Shown here in pieces: positions 48,488 to 60,173 of a DNA stretch of 64,000 bases (its first letter is position 1; each line of letters begins with the position of its first letter). Source of the DNA: an uncultured Lachnospiraceae bacterium (GTDB lineage Bacteria > Bacillota > Clostridia > Lachnospirales > Lachnospiraceae); assembly GCA_902767135.1 (NCBI GenBank), contig CACXGE010000038.1, forward strand, positions 1-64,000, in the 5' to 3' direction. The notes under the pieces were generated by a model, which ran no database searches, was not told the DNA's origin, and was given only the letters and a program-made list of their open reading frames with translations. Made by a program: the position numbers and the translations under genes.

Positions 48488-50053
48488 TTATTCCTCAGAA
48501 CTGCTAAAAATACCTTTTACATCTACCTCATCGTTGTAGCACTGTGAAAATGTACCTTCAATCACCGCACCTGAATTAATCTGTACAGAACGAGATTTAA
48601 TATTTCCTACTACAACAGCAGATGCATCCACCACAACCGGTCCATTCACATCGATATCTCCCTTTACAGCTCCTGCTATCACTGCCGAAGTGGCCGAAAT
48701 ATTTCCTAGAATAACAGTTCCATTTCCTACCTTAACAGCTTCGCTGCTGATAATTTCACCTTCAATTCTTGCCTGGTTGACAAAAATCTCACTGGCTGTG
48801 GAGTTTCCATTTACCTTACCTGAAATGGTCAGCTTTCCTTTACATGTAACATTTCCCACAATATCACCAACTACTTCAATAGAACCATCGGATTCCACAT
48901 CTCCTTTAATGCGCATACCCTTTGTAATAACTGCAACATCTTCACTCTTTGGTGCTCCATCATCTAATACACTTGTTTCTGCTTCCATCTTTACTATTTC
49001 CTCCTGAATTTGATTTTCTTCTACTGGGACTTCTTCTATTTCTATCACCTCTGGTGCAATCTGCTCTGCATCTAAATTCAACTGTTGCATCAACTCATCT
49101 ACCTCCGCTGATGTAGCTACTTCTTCTACACCTGGCTCCTCCACTTGCTCTGTTGCCTCTTTTTCCACTTTCTCAAATACTAACATATCTTTCTCCACTA
49201 CTTCTTCTGTTTCCACTGGTTTTTCTGCTTCTTTTATCATATCATCCATGGACATCTGCTGGAACACTTGTTCCATTGGAGTATTATCTTCTTTTACAAG
49301 GATTTCCTCTGGCATTGCCATTTCCTGTAATAAATCATCCATATTGGCAGAAATTTCTTCCGAAACCGGCTCTACTGCCACTGCTTCCTCTACTACTGGA
49401 TTTTCTACTGTCGGCATCTCTTCTACCACCGATTCCTCCGCTGTCGGCATCTCTTCTACCACTGGTTCCCCTGCCACTGGTTCCTCCGCTGTCGGCATCT
49501 CTTCTGCCATTGTTTCCTCTGTCACTGGTTCTTCTATTGCCGGTATTTCTTCTACCACTGGTTCCTCTGTCACTGGCTCTTCTACCGCTGGTTCCCCTGT
49601 CACTGGTTCTTCTATTGCCGGTATTTCTTCTACCACTGGTTCCTCCGTCACTGGCTCTTCTATTGACGGTATTTCTTCTACCACTGGTTCCTCTGTCGCT
49701 GGCTCTTCTACTGCTGGTTCCCCTGTCACTGGTTCCTTTTCCAAATTTTCTACAAATGCTGATACCTCGTCTGGAACCACATAATCTTCTTCTTGCAACA
49801 CAGGTGCTGCAGTCCCAGCTACCGGCATTGCTTCCTGAGCTATTTCTGGTACTTCTGAATCCTCTGGAATTACAAAATCACTACTTCTGTCCAACTCTTT
49901 TTGTGCTTTGGCCTCCGCCATAACCGAAGCAACGGTCTCCGCAACAGTGTCAGTAGGCGTTGTCTCTTCCTCTGGAATTACAAATCCTTCTGTTGGAATC
50001 AATTCGTCAACCGCCTGTTTTAAATCTTCCTTAAATTCTTTAAAAAAGCTCAT
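48488..50053 (-). CDS. Bactofilin-type protein with long Glu/Pro/Val repeat region
   Basis: A 521-residue protein. The C-terminal domain (about 405-520) is a bactofilin/DUF583 right-handed beta-helix of short repeats (GDVESDGSIEVVGDIVGNV and following), which polymerises into filaments in known members. The N-terminal two thirds are acidic and repetitive: units such as EEPVTEEPVVEEIPAI recur about ten times between residues 120 and 260. Start at 50053 (MSFFKEFKEDL) follows GGAGG by 8 bases. No membrane segment. Such long acidic repeats are unusual for bactofilins, which are normally under 200 residues. Confidence 0.85.
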   Translation of the reverse strand: MSFFKEFKEDLKQAVDELIPTEGFVIPEEETTPTDTVAETVASVMAEAKAQKELDRSSDFVIPEDSEVPEIAQEAMPVAGTAAPVLQEEDYVVPDEVSAFVENLEKEPVTGEPAVEEPATEEPVVEEIPSIEEPVTEEPVVEEIPAIEEPVTGEPAVEEPVTEEPVVEEIPAIEEPVTEETMAEEMPTAEEPVAGEPVVEEMPTAEESVVEEMPTVENPVVEEAVAVEPVSEEISANMDDLLQEMAMPEEILVKEDNTPMEQVFQQMSMDDMIKEAEKPVETEEVVEKDMLVFEKVEKEATEQVEEPGVEEVATSAEVDELMQQLNLDAEQIAPEVIEIEEVPVEENQIQEEIVKMEAETSVLDDGAPKSEDVAVITKGMRIKGDVESDGSIEVVGDIVGNVTCKGKLTISGKVNGNSTASEIFVNQARIEGEIISSEAVKVGNGTVILGNISATSAVIAGAVKGDIDVNGPVVVDASAVVVGNIKSRSVQINSGAVIEGTFSQCYNDEVDVKGIFSSSEE

Positions 50054-50193
50054 ACCCTTACCTCCATCCTGTACTGTTCCATATTTTTCCGGGCGATACT
50101 TATATATCATCATAAATAGCCCTATGTTTATAAAATCAATACTTTCATAGGATATCCACAATCAATGCTTCCACCCACCTTGAATCGTATCGA

Positions 50194-52652: not shown

Positions 52653-53387
52653 TTATTCTGCAACTTCTTCTACAGCTTCTTCTGCTGCTTCTGATACGAA
52701 CTGTTCTCCCTGGTTAGCTTCGATAACAGCATCAGCCATCTTAGAAACGATTAACTTAACTGCACGAATTGCATCATCATTTCCTGGGATTACATAATCT
52801 AATTCTTCTGGATCACAGTTAGTATCTGCAATACCAATCAAAGGAATTCCTAATGCATGTGCTTCCTGTACACAGATTCTTTCCTTCTTTGGATCTACGA
52901 TAAAGATTGCATCTGGAATCTTCTTCATATCCTTGATTCCGCCAAGGTTCTTCTCTAACTTTTCAAGTTCTTTCTTTAATTCGATAACTTCTTTCTTTGG
53001 AAGAACATCTGCTGTTCCATCTTCCATCATGGTTTCGATTTCTTTTAACTTAGCACATCTCTTCTGGATGGTCTTGAAGTTTGTCAACATACCACCTAAC
53101 CATCTTTCGTTTACATAGTACATTCCACAACGTTCAGCTTCTGTCTTGATTGCATCCTGTGCCTGCTTCTTTGTACCAACAAAAAGAACAGTTCCACCTT
53201 CTGCTACGATATCAGAGATTGCCTTGTAAGCTTCATCTACTTTACCTACAGATTTCTGTAAGTCAATGATATAAATACCATTTCTCTCTGTGTAGATGTA
53301 CTCTGCCATCTTAGGGTTCCATCTTCTTGTCTGGTGTCCAAAGTGTACACCTGCTTCAAGTAACTGTTTCATTGAAATTACGCTCAT
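52653..53387 (-). CDS. rpsB: 30S ribosomal protein S2
   Basis: A 244-residue S2. It starts [20 protein letters not shown] and contains the family blocks [20 protein letters not shown] and [20 protein letters not shown]. The C-terminus is acidic. Strong GGAGG site. Transcribed from its own promoter with a structured leader. Confidence 0.97.
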
Positions 53388-53576: not shown

Positions 53577-55526
53577 CTATGGCGTGAACAGTAACGATTT
53601 CATTGCCATCTGCGCATGTTCTATAAATAGCTGCTGAATCTCCTTCATTTCTCCTAACCCTTTTACAATACATTCCACCTCATATCCTGCTGCTTCAAAA
53701 GTTGATTTCCATGACTCTTCTTCGCTCCCTGCCATATCATGATTCGCATGTTCTCCTGCCACAATCATTAATGGTTCTAGCACCACCCTATGGTATTGGC
53801 TCGCTTGAACCTTTGCTAACACATCTTCTAATGTTGGAGTTGCTTCTACAGTTCCCACAAAGTAATTTGTAAATCCATCTTTTGTGAGCTTCTCTTGCAT
53901 TTTGGCATAAACTTTATTACTCTCCGCCTCTGTTCCGTGCCCCATAAAACAAATTGCTGTCTTACCATCATCATAAGTCTTTGTTGCTTCTGTGATAATC
54001 TTTATCACACATTCTAAATCCTCTTCTGTGGAAAGAAGCGGTGCTCCAATAGCCACCTTTTCAAAAGCACCTGCATAGTGCTCTACTGTCTTCACCACAT
54101 CATTGTATTCCAACCCATTCATCAAATGCGTTGGCTGTACCACCAAATTCTTCACTTCATTGTTTACCGCCCGTTCCAACGCTTCCTTCACATTGTCAAT
54201 AACCACACTATCTCGATTCTTGATGCGTTCAATGATCATCCGGCTAGTGAAAGCACGTCTTACCGAATAATCTGCGAACGCTCCTTCTATGGCATTTTCT
54301 ATTGCACCGATACTCCGACATCGATTTTCATTGTAGCTTGTGCCAAAGCTTACTACGAGCAATTCTTTCTGTCCTATTTCATTTTGATTTCTTGTGTTTT
54401 CCAAATTTTCATCTCCTAATTTTATTTTGCTATTACACTTTCCCAGTTTTATTGCATAATCTCTCAATTCTTTATTTTCCCGATTGTAAGGTCCAAAATT
54501 TTCTAATGGACAATAACACTTTGCTGTCTTGTCAATCCATTGTTTCGCCAATTCCACCAGCTCTCTCTTTGCGGGGTAAAATGTTTTCGTTGCAAGTACC
54601 ATACTTGCGGTAGCTTTCGCTGTGGTGTACTCTACATCCTGTGGGCTCAAAATCCCTGCCACAAAAGGAATCTTCTCTCTTTGTAGTCTATGATACACAG
54701 AAATCCCGCTTCCACCTCCGCCAATCACAAACACTTGTGGCTGAGCCTTATTCCCTTTCAAATGAATGTTTCCTGTATTTTCATCAAAAGACTCCTTAGG
54801 AATCCCATAAATTTTCTGTAGGAATCCCCCAGCAAAAATTTCTTCTGGTGTTCCTATTGCTTGTAGCTTTTCTCCTGCCACACATAAAATTTCATCCGAT
54901 ATTTGTCTTGCCAGCTCAAGCTCATGAAGAGACATGACAACTGCCACTGACTTTTCTCTCGCAAAGCTTCTAATTTTTTCTAACAAATCCATTTTGTAGT
55001 ACAAATCAAGATAAGAGGTTGGTTCATCTAAAATCAACACTTTTGGTTCTTGACAAAAGGCGCGAGCAAGCATGACTCTCTGTCTTTGACCATCACTAAT
55101 TTTCTTAAAATTCTGTTGAGCAATCTCTGTTACCTCCATATATTCCATGGCTGCCTTCATTTTTTCCTTATCCTCATTTGAGAGAATCCCAAATCTTCCC
55201 GTAAACGGATATCTACCTGTTGCTACCATGTCCTCACAAGTCATACGTTCCACCTTCATAGGACTCGTCATCACCATAGAGATTTGTTTTGCAATTTCTG
55301 ACTGTTTTAGTGTCGTCATCGGGTTCCCTTGAAGTTCTATCACTCCTCCAAGACTCTTTAGTTGTCCTGTAATGGTCTTGAGTATCGTAGACTTTCCTGC
55401 TCCATTTGGTCCAATGAGAGTCAGTATCTTTCCTGGCTTTACCAAAAAGCTCACATCCGAAATCCATACTCTTTTTTCATAGCCAACCGAAACATTCTTT
55501 AATTCTATTGCTTTTTTTTTCATCAT
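53577..55526 (-). CDS. Fusion of ABC transporter ATPase and CbiK-type chelatase
   Basis: A 649-residue fusion. Residues 1-250 are a FecE/BtuD-type ATPase: Walker A GPNGAGKST (39-47), signature SDGQRQR (144-150), Walker B VLILDEPT, H-loop His201. Residues 260-380 are a separate alpha/beta domain with the nucleotide-binding-like loop GGGGSG and a CYCP motif. Residues 385-645 are a class-II chelatase like CbiK (sirohydrochlorin cobaltochelatase) with His530 in GHGT, Glu561 in GTVEATP and His593 in AGEHANHD, all active-site positions kept. It is the last gene of the cobalamin-riboswitch operon. A hairpin GTTCACGCC / GGTGTGAAC spans its stop codon. Confidence 0.9.
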   Translation of the reverse strand: MMKKKAIELKNVSVGYEKRVWISDVSFLVKPGKILTLIGPNGAGKSTILKTITGQLKSLGGVIELQGNPMTTLKQSEIAKQISMVMTSPMKVERMTCEDMVATGRYPFTGRFGILSNEDKEKMKAAMEYMEVTEIAQQNFKKISDGQRQRVMLARAFCQEPKVLILDEPTSYLDLYYKMDLLEKIRSFAREKSVAVVMSLHELELARQISDEILCVAGEKLQAIGTPEEIFAGGFLQKIYGIPKESFDENTGNIHLKGNKAQPQVFVIGGGGSGISVYHRLQREKIPFVAGILSPQDVEYTTAKATASMVLATKTFYPAKRELVELAKQWIDKTAKCYCPLENFGPYNRENKELRDYAIKLGKCNSKIKLGDENLENTRNQNEIGQKELLVVSFGTSYNENRCRSIGAIENAIEGAFADYSVRRAFTSRMIIERIKNRDSVVIDNVKEALERAVNNEVKNLVVQPTHLMNGLEYNDVVKTVEHYAGAFEKVAIGAPLLSTEEDLECVIKIITEATKTYDDGKTAICFMGHGTEAESNKVYAKMQEKLTKDGFTNYFVGTVEATPTLEDVLAKVQASQYHRVVLEPLMIVAGEHANHDMAGSEEESWKSTFEAAGYEVECIVKGLGEMKEIQQLFIEHAQMAMKSLLFTP

Positions 55527-55602: not shown

Positions 55603-56595
55603 TTATTCCTTTTTACATAACATCACCATAACTACTGGAACCAGGCAAACTGCTGTGACTGAGCTGATGCTTACCTCTGTAGGTGCAAATATAGTTCTAG
55701 CGATACCATCACAAAGCATTGTAATACAACCACCTCCCAAAAAGCACGCAGGAAGTAGCGCTAAGGGCTTTGCTGTCTTCATCAATCCCTTCATCAAGTG
55801 CGGAACTGCAATTCCTACAAAAGAAATCGGTCCTGCAAAGGAGGTAACACAAGCAGTAAGAAGACTAGAGCATAAAATAATACCAATCCGAATCCCTGAA
55901 ATATTGACTCCCATATTTCTAGCGTAAGCTTCTCCTAGCTGATAAGCATAAATCGGCTTAGACAAAAGAAAGGTTACTAAAAAAACTGGAAATACAATTC
56001 CCACAACACAATATAGCTCCTTCCAATTCATTCCTGAGAAGCTTCCTTGAGACCAATTGTGTAAATTCACAATATTGGAGTCTGCTGCGAAGGTTACGCA
56101 CAAATCTGTAATCGCGGAGCAAATATACCCAATCATAATTCCGCAAACCACAAGAAGTGACATGCTTTCTACCCTCTTAGAAATCACCAATACAAATAAC
56201 ATAGATACCATAGAGCCTGCAAAGGCAGCTCCCACCATTCCCATGGAGGAAATCTGCACCCCTCTTTCCAGTAAAAATATCATAGACATTGCCACAAAAA
56301 GCTTCGCCCCTGAAGAAATTCCTAACACATAAGGACCAGCAATCGGATTTCTGAAAAAGGTTTGTAGCAAAAAACCAGAAACGGATAAGGCACCACCCAA
56401 AAACAAGGCAGCCAATACTCTTGGTAATCGTATCTGTAAAATCACCTGATAGTTCATACCAGACTTCGTTTTTCCACTTATCATCTCTAAAAGCTCACCA
56501 AAAGCTATCACATGACTTCCTACACATATATTTCCCACAAATAGGAAACATACTAAAAACATTAAACCCAAATAGGCACAAACGGTTCTTTTCAT
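55603..56595 (-). CDS. FecCD/BtuC-family ABC permease
   Basis: A 330-residue permease for iron-siderophore, haem or cobalamin type importers. About ten transmembrane helices, with family stretches LRLPRVLAALFLGGALSVSG near residue 52 and GPISFVGIAVPHLMK near 245 (the latter contains the ATPase-coupling helix). Starts 9 bases after the binding-protein stop with GTAGGAG upstream. It should form a homodimer with the ATPase-CbiK fusion as the nucleotide-binding subunit. Substrate is inferred from the riboswitch. Confidence 0.93.
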   Translation of the reverse strand: MKRTVCAYLGLMFLVCFLFVGNICVGSHVIAFGELLEMISGKTKSGMNYQVILQIRLPRVLAALFLGGALSVSGFLLQTFFRNPIAGPYVLGISSGAKLFVAMSMIFLLERGVQISSMGMVGAAFAGSMVSMLFVLVISKRVESMSLLVVCGIMIGYICSAITDLCVTFAADSNIVNLHNWSQGSFSGMNWKELYCVVGIVFPVFLVTFLLSKPIYAYQLGEAYARNMGVNISGIRIGIILCSSLLTACVTSFAGPISFVGIAVPHLMKGLMKTAKPLALLPACFLGGGCITMLCDGIARTIFAPTEVSISSVTAVCLVPVVMVMLCKKE

Positions 56596-56604
56596 TTTTT
56601 TCTC

Positions 56605-58128
56605 CTACTTTAACTTCTTAAGATACGTGAAATTTTTTTCTTCTTTTTTCATTACACTGTGCAAATCCTGAATAAAAGCACAAGTTCCCGTAGATTCCTG
56701 AAAAAAATTACTTGTGGTACAGTAAACTTCATTTTCTTTGACTGCCTTAAATTCCTTGAAAATTTCATTTTTTCTAAGAAGCTCGTCTACACCTTCTAAT
56801 TCACCATCTATGGTGCTGTTATAAATCAAAATATCTGCATCCTTTGCTTTGTAATAAAAGCTTTCTATTTCCATATTCATGGTGGATAACCCGTTTTCTT
56901 CTGTTTCTAATGTATTCTTTAACACATATTCTCCACCTGCTAATTCTATCATTTTAGCTATATAATCATTTGGCTTCCTAACATTGATAGCTCCATTGGT
57001 CGTACAATAAAAATACGCAACCGTTTTTCCTGTCGCTTCTTGTTCTAAAACTGGCTCGATTTGCGATACCTGTTCTTCATAAAAATCACAAGCCGCCTCC
57101 TCTTTTCCAAACAAAGCCCCATAAGCCTTCACCCATTCCAAACGTCCCAGTGGATGCTTTTCGTAGCTGGAACGTTCTACAAATACAGGGATTTTCAATT
57201 CCTCTAATTTTTCCTTCACCTCGGGATTATGATAAATCATTGTATTTTCAATTGCTAAATCACATTGTTTCTCCAACAGCAGCTCATAATCTGGTGCACT
57301 ATACTTTCCTGCATATAAAAGCTTTTGTTTTTCCATAGCCTGTCTTGCTGGTTTTAAATACCAATCCTTCTTCTTTGTTCCTGTTAAGGTCACTTGAGAA
57401 AGTGCTCCCAGCTTATCTATGCAATCCATCACCGAGGTAGATACTAGGTAGGTATGCTGTATCGGCTGATTTATAACCTTTACCTCCTTTGGAAGACTCT
57501 TTGGAACTTTGGTATTCTTAGGCACAATCAAATACGTATCTCCGTTTTGAATCCGTATTACCTTATAATCACCGTAGGCCTCCAAAGAAAACTCCGTAGC
57601 ATAGTTTAGCGTAGAAACTTTTTTTTCTCCCAAATACGAAAAATCTATCTTCTCCTTTTGCTTCTCGTTCGCTTCTGCCGATTTCTCGGTTTCCTTCGCA
57701 TCACCATCATCCTTCTTCAAAGAGAGTTTGAGAATATATGAAATTTCATGTGGCGTACTCATTGCTGTTGTATCCGCTACCACAGGAATATCACAATCAA
57801 GCTGAGCAATAGGAATGGTAAACCTCGAAGGTTCTCCTAGCTCTGCTTCGTTTTCATATTTTTTTTCATCCACCAGCATATAATCATAATTGCTACTACT
57901 CCATATCAAAGTTGCATAGATGGTTTGTTCTTTTATCTCGATTTTCGTTGGATTCTCAAGCGTAGCCTTTCCCGTTCCTCCTGTCAAAGTGGCATAGCCT
58001 TCGTATAAGCCGTCAGTCAAAGAAAGACTCTCCACCACGTGAAGAGCCTCCTGTTTCCTTTGACCACAGCCTGTCATGGTCAGAATCAACCCCAAAAGAA
58101 TCCAAACCTTTGGTAATTTTATTTTCAT
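56605..58128 (-). CDS. Tetrapyrrole-type ABC substrate-binding lipoprotein with extra N-terminal domain
   Basis: A 507-residue lipoprotein with lipobox MTGC (Cys21). The C-terminal part (about 215-495) is a BtuF/FhuD-like periplasmic-binding fold (VSTSVMDCIDKLGAL, GGEYVLKN). The N-terminal part (about 35-140) is a beta-rich domain with DGLYEGYATLTGGTGKA and IWSSSNYDYMLVDEKKY, recalling NEAT-like ligand-binding modules; a similar opening, DGVYTAEF, occurs in the C-terminus of the neighbouring secreted chelatase. Start at 58128 (MKIKLPKVWI) is 1 base after the chelatase stop. The longer frame adds residues that would spoil the signal peptide. Confidence 0.85.
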   Translation of the reverse strand: MKIKLPKVWILLGLILTMTGCGQRKQEALHVVESLSLTDGLYEGYATLTGGTGKATLENPTKIEIKEQTIYATLIWSSSNYDYMLVDEKKYENEAELGEPSRFTIPIAQLDCDIPVVADTTAMSTPHEISYILKLSLKKDDGDAKETEKSAEANEKQKEKIDFSYLGEKKVSTLNYATEFSLEAYGDYKVIRIQNGDTYLIVPKNTKVPKSLPKEVKVINQPIQHTYLVSTSVMDCIDKLGALSQVTLTGTKKKDWYLKPARQAMEKQKLLYAGKYSAPDYELLLEKQCDLAIENTMIYHNPEVKEKLEELKIPVFVERSSYEKHPLGRLEWVKAYGALFGKEEAACDFYEEQVSQIEPVLEQEATGKTVAYFYCTTNGAINVRKPNDYIAKMIELAGGEYVLKNTLETEENGLSTMNMEIESFYYKAKDADILIYNSTIDGELEGVDELLRKNEIFKEFKAVKENEVYCTTSNFFQESTGTCAFIQDLHSVMKKEEKNFTYLKKLK

Positions 58129-58129
58129 A

Positions 58130-59782
58130 TTACTGTGCCTTTTCTGGATTAGAAACAGAAACCACATGATCATACCAGGTTCCCTTTTCTCCTACCAAAG
58201 CCAACTGGAAATCCTTTCCAATTTCCTCTACAGGTACATCAAAGCCATAAACCTCCTCTGTTGTTCCATCCTCATAAGTAACAGTATCGACGGTTGGCTG
58301 TAAAAGGGTGGCACCCTCTTTCTGAGCATCCTCGGCCATTCCTACATATAAATTCAAAATCTTCTTCGACACCAAACTAATGTGCATCGTCATTTTGCCA
58401 TCCTTTACCGTAAGCTCTCCCTTTCCGTTTTTTGCTTCATTTACACGAAACATACTGCTATCGGTATGAAATTCTGCTGTATATACTCCGTCCTCTAGCG
58501 TAGCAGAAGCCTCTGTCTTCGTTTCCTCTTGAGCTGATATTTCGCCTAAGTCCTTAACAGCTGCTGCTGTATGCTCTACATATAATTTCTGAATTGCTTC
58601 AATTCTGCCAAGACCTTCAATTTGAGTAGAGACAGCTTCAAAGGCTCCATCGGCTTCAAACATACTCTTCCACGAATCCTCTTCATCACCTGCCATATCA
58701 TTGTTTGCATGGTCACCTGCCACTACCATCAATGGTCTAAGGATAACCTTCTTGTAGCCTGCTTCCTTCACAGTTGCAATCACTTCTTCACAGGAGGTAC
58801 CCTCTGGCTCTCCCTCTACTGTTCCAATAAAGACGTTCTTATATCCAAGCTGCTCCATCTGTGTCTGCATCTGACTATAGCTTACCTTAGCTGTATGAGA
58901 GGTTCCATGCCCCATCAACACAATCGCTTCCCCTGCATTTTCTGCTTCCTCTAGGCTTTCATATTCTGATGCTGAAATTGCAGCTGACACTACTGCCTCT
59001 GCCACCGCCTTCTTATCCTCATTAATAACCGCTGCATCCTCTCCTACTTCGCCAAGTAAAGGCTCTGCTACCGTCACCTTTTCAAATTTATCTTTATATT
59101 TTTCTAAAGCTTCACTTAATTCATCATATTCCGCTCCATGCATCAAATGTGTTGGCTGTACCACAAGATACTTCACACCGTTGGAAACAGCTCTTTCTAA
59201 CGCCTGCTCCATATTATCAATTTTTTCATTATCTCTTGCCTGAATATGATTTATGATAATTTGAGCGGTAAACGCACGTCTCACTGACCAATCTGGGTTT
59301 TCTGACTGAATGTTTTTTTCCACCTGACTGATATCTGATACACGACTATCATTAAAGGAAGTACCAAAGCTTACTACAAGAATTTCCTTTTCTCCAATGC
59401 CATCTGCATTTAATGGATCATCCTTTGAAGCATCTCCTGTATCTCTTCCAAAATAGTCTGGATCTGCATTTTCTCCCTCTACCAATTCCTTCTGGGCATC
59501 TGTCAAAGCATCCCAAGCTGCCTTAGCCGCTTCACACTGGGCATCTGTTTGTTCTGTTCTTTGTTGTACATAGATAGCATCTATTAAGTCTGCTACCTCT
59601 TTAGCCTTTGCTTCGTCATCTACCTCTTCCTTTTCCTCAGTGACTTCGCTTTCTGGCTCTTTTGTTACTTCTGTTGTAACCTCCGCATTTTCTTTTGTGG
59701 TTTCTTTGTTTCCACAGCCTGTCATCATTCCTGCAACCATAGTACAAGATAATAACAATGCAACTACACTTTTTCTTTTCAT
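58130..59782 (-). CDS. cbiK: Extracytoplasmic CbiK-type chelatase lipoprotein
   Basis: A 550-residue lipoprotein with lipobox MTGC (Cys23), so the enzyme faces outwards. A Glu/Lys-rich helical linker (25-100) is followed by a CbiK chelatase domain (about 130-410): VVSFGTSFNDSR, His292 in MGHGT, Glu323 in GTVEGEP, His358 in AGDHANND, matching the catalytic His/Glu/His of characterised CbiK. The C-terminus (about 428-545) is a beta-rich domain (DGVYTAEF, GELTVKDGKMTMHISL) with a resemblance to that of the binding protein next door. CbiK normally inserts cobalt into sirohydrochlorin inside the cell; outside, metal loading, metal removal or tetrapyrrole binding are all possible. Confidence 0.88.
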   Translation of the reverse strand: MKRKSVVALLLSCTMVAGMMTGCGNKETTKENAEVTTEVTKEPESEVTEEKEEVDDEAKAKEVADLIDAIYVQQRTEQTDAQCEAAKAAWDALTDAQKELVEGENADPDYFGRDTGDASKDDPLNADGIGEKEILVVSFGTSFNDSRVSDISQVEKNIQSENPDWSVRRAFTAQIIINHIQARDNEKIDNMEQALERAVSNGVKYLVVQPTHLMHGAEYDELSEALEKYKDKFEKVTVAEPLLGEVGEDAAVINEDKKAVAEAVVSAAISASEYESLEEAENAGEAIVLMGHGTSHTAKVSYSQMQTQMEQLGYKNVFIGTVEGEPEGTSCEEVIATVKEAGYKKVILRPLMVVAGDHANNDMAGDEEDSWKSMFEADGAFEAVSTQIEGLGRIEAIQKLYVEHTAAAVKDLGEISAQEETKTEASATLEDGVYTAEFHTDSSMFRVNEAKNGKGELTVKDGKMTMHISLVSKKILNLYVGMAEDAQKEGATLLQPTVDTVTYEDGTTEEVYGFDVPVEEIGKDFQLALVGEKGTWYDHVVSVSNPEKAQ

Positions 59783-59821: not shown

Positions 59822-59911
59822 TTAGAGCAAGGCATCATATGACAGAAGCATATAGCTTCCATTCAGTACAATCAATACCTCGTGACCTGGAATTTCTTCC
59901 TGTACTATCAT
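59822..59911 (-). CDS. Possible 29-residue leader peptide after the riboswitch
   Basis: A 30-codon frame, MIVQEEIPGHEVLIVLNG then SYMLLSYDALL, starts at the last bases of the riboswitch and ends 39 bases before the cbiK start. An AGGA lies about 14 bases upstream, inside the conserved 3' arm of the aptamer, a weak binding site. It could be chance or a peptide whose translation reports the riboswitch state. Confidence 0.25.
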   Translation of the reverse strand: MIVQEEIPGHEVLIVLNGSYMLLSYDALL

Positions 59912-60160
59912 AACTGGCAGGTTTCCTGACTTAGGTTCATCGTAGTTATTACAGCTGGAAGCGTATATCTCCTTCTCAGTTCAAATACACCTCGGCTTAT
60001 TTGAATTCCTAGCTTAGCCATGATGATAACAAAGCTCCAGCCTTCCCAAGACAAATTTGTCTCAGTGGCTTCTATGGACTACTCCCCATCACAGTGACGA
60101 GATCGTTTCAGATTCACACTGACTTCCCTTTTACCCAAATTTTGGCACCAGCTACTCTTA
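59912..60160 (-). promoter_or_regulatory. Cobalamin riboswitch (class I)
   Basis: On the minus strand the conserved elements are in order: GGTGCC, GGGAAGTCAGTGTGAATCTG, the CTCGTCACTGTGA stretch, the B12 box GCCACTG (60063-60069), GGGAAGGC, and the 3' arm AAGTCAGGAAACCTGCC (59914-59930). This is the standard adenosyl-/methylcobalamin aptamer. No T-rich terminator is visible before the start codon, so control is probably at translation or by an unusual expression platform. It would lower operon expression when cobalamin is plentiful. Confidence 0.95.
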
Positions 60161-60173
60161 TGTAGTTGTTACA

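Follow-up and report, generated by a model that had tools for sequence, protein, structure and literature searches.

A single gene of a gut bacterium, found in the window (the whole stretch of DNA analysed, 64,000 nucleotides), encodes a 649-residue polypeptide in which an ABC ATPase, a middle domain and a CbiK chelatase are joined in frame. The protein appears to be the ATPase of a BtuCD-like tetrapyrrole or corrinoid importer under cobalamin-riboswitch control. We give an even chance to the reading that its CbiK part is a cytoplasmic, importer-anchored cobalt chelatase, derived from an exported CbiK through replacement of one operon by another, with the tether itself incidental. The fusion is genuine in the available sequence and is also rare; for three complete in-frame domains, chance is no explanation.

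Architecture of the fusion gene

The gene forms one open reading frame on the minus strand, uninterrupted from ATG to TAG (Table 1). An earlier note had described a three-part polypeptide, and its ATPase (residues 1–250), middle domain and full CbiK were all confirmed by ORF and Pfam analysis; the strand was missing from that note. ABC_tran (PF00005) matched residues 23–171 with 116 bits against a cut-off of 25, and CbiK (PF06180) matched residues 387–642 (E = 1.1e-81, 274 bits against a cut-off of 26.2), covering positions 1–261 of the 262 in the model. Direct reading of the ATPase identified Walker A (GPNGAGKST), signature (SDGQRQ), Walker B (VLILDEPTS) and H-loop (SLHE) motifs. A full-length AF2 model formed the domains, with unreliable relative placement (pTM 0.50); residues 364–378 of the linker had pLDDT values below 50 and are, as modelled, probably flexible.

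The candidate internal start in Table 1, from which a free CbiK might be made, was considered suggestive yet within chance, an AGGAG–TTG site being expected here in 19% of synonymous shuffles, and was set aside. No second ATPase–CbiK fusion was found in overlapping samples of 200 and 397 genomes of the family, 392 genomes of the order and four genus mates. The fusion is known from one MAG, a draft genome of 171 contigs, and the literature searched held no paper describing it.

Table 1. Positions of the fusion gene, its parts and the surrounding operon in the window
Feature	Position	Strand	Evidence and remarks
rpsB, next gene downstream of the fusion	52653..53387	-	same neighbour in genus mate G203
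Fusion gene: BtuD/FecE-type ABC ATPase, Rossmann-like C-terminal domain and CbiK chelatase	53577..55526	-	649 aa; ORF, Pfam and NCBIfam
CbiK domain, residues 386–645	53592..54371	-	H530 and H593 kept; D592E and N596H beside H593
Linker, residues 367–385	54372..54428	-	second half (GDENLENTRNQNEIG) homologous to the exported CbiK lipoprotein linker; low model confidence
Possible internal start for a free CbiK: AGGAG, 8 nt, in-frame TTG (codon 375)	54402..54417	-	sole such site in the gene
Middle domain, residues ~262–366, predicted Rossmann-like	54429..54743	-	PRK09536 alignment, relatives, AF2 and fold search
ABC ATPase domain, residues 1–250	54777..55526	-	ABC_tran 2.4e-33; all nucleotide-binding motifs intact; best PDB match FhuC, 3.2e-39
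FecCD/BtuC-type permease	55603..56595	-	PF01032, 1.8e-76
Substrate-binding lipoprotein (Peripla_BP_2) with extra N-terminal domain	56605..58128	-	PF01497, 8.3e-32; lipobox read directly
Second CbiK of the operon, B-type exported lipoprotein with unnamed C-terminal domain	58130..59782	-	48% identical to the fused CbiK
Cobalamin riboswitch (RF00174), head of the operon	59899..60167	-	77.8 bits, gathering 31.5

The middle domain

Judged by its relatives, the middle domain is the usual C-terminal extension of a BtuD-like importer ATPase and no special adaptor. It lies behind the same ATPase in the loci of 67 relatives, nearly all such proteins stopping at about residue 366 (window numbering), and the NCBIfam model PRK09536 (corrinoid ABC ATPase, 402 positions) aligns across both domains, to residues 6–335, at 196 bits, below its curated cut-off of 537. 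Some related ATPases are without the domain, ATPase–CbiP fusions among them. The earlier note was right that a separate stretch with GGGGSG and CYCP motifs exists, and it folds alone when modelled; its description as something unnameable did not hold, and a novel adaptor was rejected, given the 67 loci and PRK09536. The pattern GG.GxG is conserved among middle-domain relatives, and CYCP is not (consensus VICC..FG).

Modelled alone, the domain was compact and alpha/beta (AF2 pLDDT 86, pTM 0.83). A fold search placed the N-terminal domain of Salmonella CysG (precorrin-2 dehydrogenase/ferrochelatase) first (Z 8.2) but tied with MurC (8.1), KefC (8.0) and PurK (8.0); there was no sequence match in Pfam or the PDB, and none to CysG. 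The predicted fold is Rossmann-like and generic, and our claim is limited to the fold. The new part of the protein is its CbiK tail, which is extra to the PRK09536 architecture.

Descent of the fused CbiK from an exported lipoprotein

In relatives, the operon usually runs in the order exported CbiK, substrate-binding protein(s), FecCD permease and ATPase. Exported CbiK fell into two groups in the tree, A type and B type, the former reaching 70% identity to the fused CbiK domain and the latter 80% identity to the window's own lipoprotein CbiK. The fused CbiK belongs to the A-type clade and matches exported A-type CbiK found in genus mates as well as in other genera. Part of its linker, GDENLENTRNQNEIG, matches GDASLDNTRNQDEIG in the CbiK lipoproteins of genus mates, and such a motif precedes the CbiK domain in 82 of 100 CbiK rows. 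No signal peptide or lipobox stands before the fused CbiK; the ATPase precedes it, and of the lipoprotein's leading part the linker alone remains. Because of the A-type membership and the linker shared with lipoproteins, the fused CbiK is taken to descend from an exported lipoprotein that has lost its signal peptide.

The earlier note had raised a sequencing error near residue 380 that would have run two separate genes together. Relatives stop near residue 366, and no chelatase gene restarts there in any of them; in their operons an exported CbiK comes first, encoded 3–4 kb upstream of the ATPase. A split gene or frameshift was accordingly rejected as the source of the fusion, the chelatase sitting at the opposite end of the operon.

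Proposed operon replacement at a shared chromosomal site

The window genome, G203 and G201 share one chromosomal site, flanked by coaBC/ABC-F and by rpsB, and differ in what it holds. In G203 it is occupied by an A-type operon, whose importer genes end in a plain ATPase followed by rpsB. In G201 a signal-less A-type CbiK occupies it, and the B-type operon of that genome lies at another place. In the window genome the site holds a B-type operon that ends in ATPase–CbiK(A). A B operon would have replaced an A operon at this site and left cbiK-A behind the new ATPase, an order of events that we infer. In the tree, the signal-less CbiK of G201 stands beside the G203 lipoprotein (support 99/87), and the fused copy takes another position within the A clade, one that is not strongly supported. 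Because these two copies are on different A-clade branches, internalisation of CbiK probably happened twice in the genus. Both internalising genomes also carry a B-type exported CbiK. The G201 copy (L119:6863-7687) is strongly diverged, with a branch of 1.02 and 27 departures from A-type conserved columns.

A cobalamin riboswitch heads the operon in all nine of the relatives' loci scanned. Domains of ~100–200 amino acids with no Pfam match were observed in the exported CbiK (58130–58507) and in the N-terminal part of the substrate-binding protein (within 56605–58128); they recur in most relatives, change places between genes and are NEAT-like by eye only. Elsewhere in the window, between pyrH and a polysaccharide deacetylase gene, positions 48488–50161 encode long E/P-rich repeats (EEPVTEEPVVEEIPAIEEP...) followed by a C-terminus that looks bactofilin-like by eye.

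Constraint on the fused CbiK

The catalytic histidines of Salmonella CbiK are His145 and His207 (PMC7689651), and H530 and H593 of the fused CbiK align with them. The fused copy reads GEHANHD at the loop of the second histidine, where Salmonella and each of the 96 exported rows have GDHAxND; this latter pattern is a feature of the rows compared here and is no published definition. As a mark of internal CbiK, GEHANHD was rejected: internal copies of Salmonella, G105, G138 and G159 keep GDHAxND. Those of G201, G200 and Ilyobacter also depart from it. The NCBIfam equivalog for sirohydrochlorin cobaltochelatase CbiK (NF047852) gave 231 bits, below its curated cut-off of 400.

Against A-type relatives, pN was 0.18–0.20 and pS 0.75–0.87, pS being saturated, hence giving no exact ratio; by this comparison the fused CbiK is under purifying selection. 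Its tree branch is 0.48 long, as against about 0.14 for exported relatives. Tajima's rate test gave 43 versus 20 (p 0.004) with one outgroup and was non-significant in three of six comparisons with two other outgroups. Eight departures from A-type conserved columns were counted, most rows having 0–3. Read together, the aligned sequences describe a domain that is constrained but altered.

The alteration could also belong to a decaying relic, in which cbiK-A, stranded by the operon replacement, is tolerated as a functionless tail. The longer branch, the changed loop and the excess of departures fit such decay, as does the signal-less copy of G201, further gone in both respects (27 departures, branch 1.02). 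However, neither a stop nor a frameshift has arisen across about 260 codons at ~30% amino acid divergence, pN is well below pS and the catalytic histidines are kept, and we regard a relic as unlikely.

Discussion

According to the reading favoured here, of an internalised chelatase, the former lipoprotein CbiK would have lost its signal peptide and would now face the cytoplasm, anchored to the importer, while the other CbiK of the operon would remain outside the cell. A cytoplasmic location follows by analogy with the family, from the topology of ABC nucleotide-binding domains. It is also as much as can be kept of the earlier note's proposal that the chelatase is placed at the permease exit for direct hand-over: proximity follows from the cytoplasmic tether, by way of a low-confidence, probably flexible linker. 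The tether is probably incidental, with no channel. The fused CbiK most likely continues to insert Co(II) into sirohydrochlorin, now in the cytoplasm, and it would supply the cobalt step absent from the genome's otherwise complete anaerobic B12 cluster. That cluster, on contig C142, encodes HemA, HemL, HemB, HemC, CobA–HemD, CbiL, CbiH, CbiF, CbiG, CbiD, CbiJ, CbiET, CbiC, CbiA, CbiP, CobD, CobU, CobS and CobT, and contains no CbiK or CbiX. A genome-wide search with PF06180 and PF01903 matched the fused and the exported CbiK alone; the fused copy is the sole non-exported chelatase of the CbiK/CbiX class found in the window genome. An internal CbiK is not obviously required, since five genomes with HemB, HemC, CobA and CbiD (G202, G029, G153, G333 and G276) have exported CbiK only, and the CbiK of the Sulfurospirillum cob cluster also bears an N-terminal export signal.

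Known systems share parts of this arrangement. Salmonella CbiK (1qgo/2xwp), a sirohydrochlorin cobaltochelatase, matches the fused CbiK over its full length (2.3e-41), with both catalytic histidines kept; the fused copy differs in not being a free enzyme, in the D-to-E and N-to-H changes beside the second histidine, and in its exported rather than cytosolic ancestry. The D. vulgaris chelatase 2xvx (periplasmic CbiKP) and P. gingivalis FetB/IhtB (9b86) belong to the same PF06180 family. The other CbiK of the operon is an exported lipoprotein of this style, whereas the fused one is without a signal peptide and predicted to be cytoplasmic. The norcobamide cluster of Sulfurospirillum contains CbiK–BtuCDF (PMC7755780); at that locus (L174) the exported CbiK stands beside BtuC, BtuD and BtuF, but the genes are separate and the ATPase is of ordinary length. 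Plasmid pILYOP01 of Ilyobacter polytropus (L173:3823-5837) encodes exported and cytosolic CbiK in tandem beside a permease, an ATPase and a substrate-binding protein, the same inside/outside pair, with the internal CbiK a separate gene.

Selection for hand-over is a distinct explanation of the fusion: the tethered CbiK would take tetrapyrrole leaving the permease and insert cobalt at once. A dimer of nucleotide-binding domains would bring two CbiK domains under one importer, and the same ATPase is fused to other enzymes of the corrin pathway. In four genera (L133–L136; G193, G080, G428 and G547), CbiP/CobQ is joined to an ATPase that has no middle domain (fusions of 772–817 aa; L133 and L135 confirmed by NCBIfam), and in one (L137:3518-5278, from a genome without HemB and HemC) the ATPase and middle domain are followed by CbiC (587 aa). 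Open reading frames of 767–801 aa at L168 and L169 resemble the ATPase–CbiP fusions by length only. CbiP and CbiC, however, catalyse steps that come long after any import, and they adjoin the ATPase in cob clusters, and that adjacency may explain their fusions. Read-through into a neighbour may be a common cause of the ATPase fusions, because every CbiP or CbiC tail derives from the cob cluster next to the ATPase. Two observations weaken hand-over by CbiK: the fused form is known from one genome, with no further case in the samples searched, and this genome encodes early tetrapyrrole enzymes of its own for a sirohydrochlorin precursor. The linker, moreover, looks flexible. Channelling is possible but unsupported, and we consider it distinctly unlikely.

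An assembly or sequencing artefact joining two genes is very unlikely. The fusion comes from one MAG and is in no relative, and a single-base error could have erased a stop; but both flanks (ABC-F/coaBC and rpsB–tsf) are syntenic with those of genus mates, the G+C is even across the junction, and the two CbiK copies of the operon are just 48% identical to each other, so a collapse is impossible. Even with a stop lost by base error, cbiK-A would lie directly behind the ATPase. A heme or porphyrin system, with heme as the cargo of the importer and FetB/IhtB-like CbiK domains acting in metal removal or exchange, draws on a PDB match to the heme-binding FetB of P. gingivalis (6.6e-40) and a weak resemblance of the substrate-binding protein to IsdE (39 bits, cut-off 299), but is highly improbable against the cobalamin riboswitch before the window operon and the nine relatives' operons, and against the running of the operon into cbi genes in several genomes.

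Beyond the fusion, the operon itself may be an uptake system for half-made B12 rings, a role that we put forward tentatively and at somewhat less than an even chance. The exported CbiK would load cobalt into sirohydrochlorin from the environment, or into a precursor further along the pathway, and the BtuCD-like importer would then carry the cobalt tetrapyrrole to the cbi enzymes. A link between uptake and the pathway would account for the ATPase having been fused repeatedly, to CbiP, to CbiC and to CbiK. CbiD was found in 24 of 26 genomes, which had been selected because they carry this locus or are related, and HemB, HemC and CobA were all absent from 11. These 11 (G193, G080, G428, G547, G158, G546, G479, G174, G177, G112 and G180) have CbiD, and their sole CbiK is exported. 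Of nine genomes that combine the early pathway with CbiD, four have an intracellular CbiK; of the 11 without the early pathway, none does (Fisher p 0.026, in a small chosen sample uncorrected for kinship). Since 6 of the 11 (G193, G428, G547, G158, G546 and G174) have no CbiL above the TIGR01467 cut-off, the ring imported there could be later than sirohydrochlorin, or CbiL could be divergent.

Tetrapyrrole-precursor salvagers were defined by Shelton et al. (PMC6461909), who stated that little further work had explored them; the 11 genomes fit that definition and are candidates for salvagers using this operon. No sirohydrochlorin importer, nor an importer of precursor salvagers, was identified in the literature searched. 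In the fusion, a chelatase of extracellular origin would have come to lie on the cytoplasmic face of its own importer, and the protein makes the importance of the tether readily testable. The operon is the more valuable lead: if the salvage role is true, it would supply precursor salvagers that have the corrin pathway but no HemB, HemC or CobA with their starting tetrapyrrole, and it is a candidate answer to where such bacteria obtain it.
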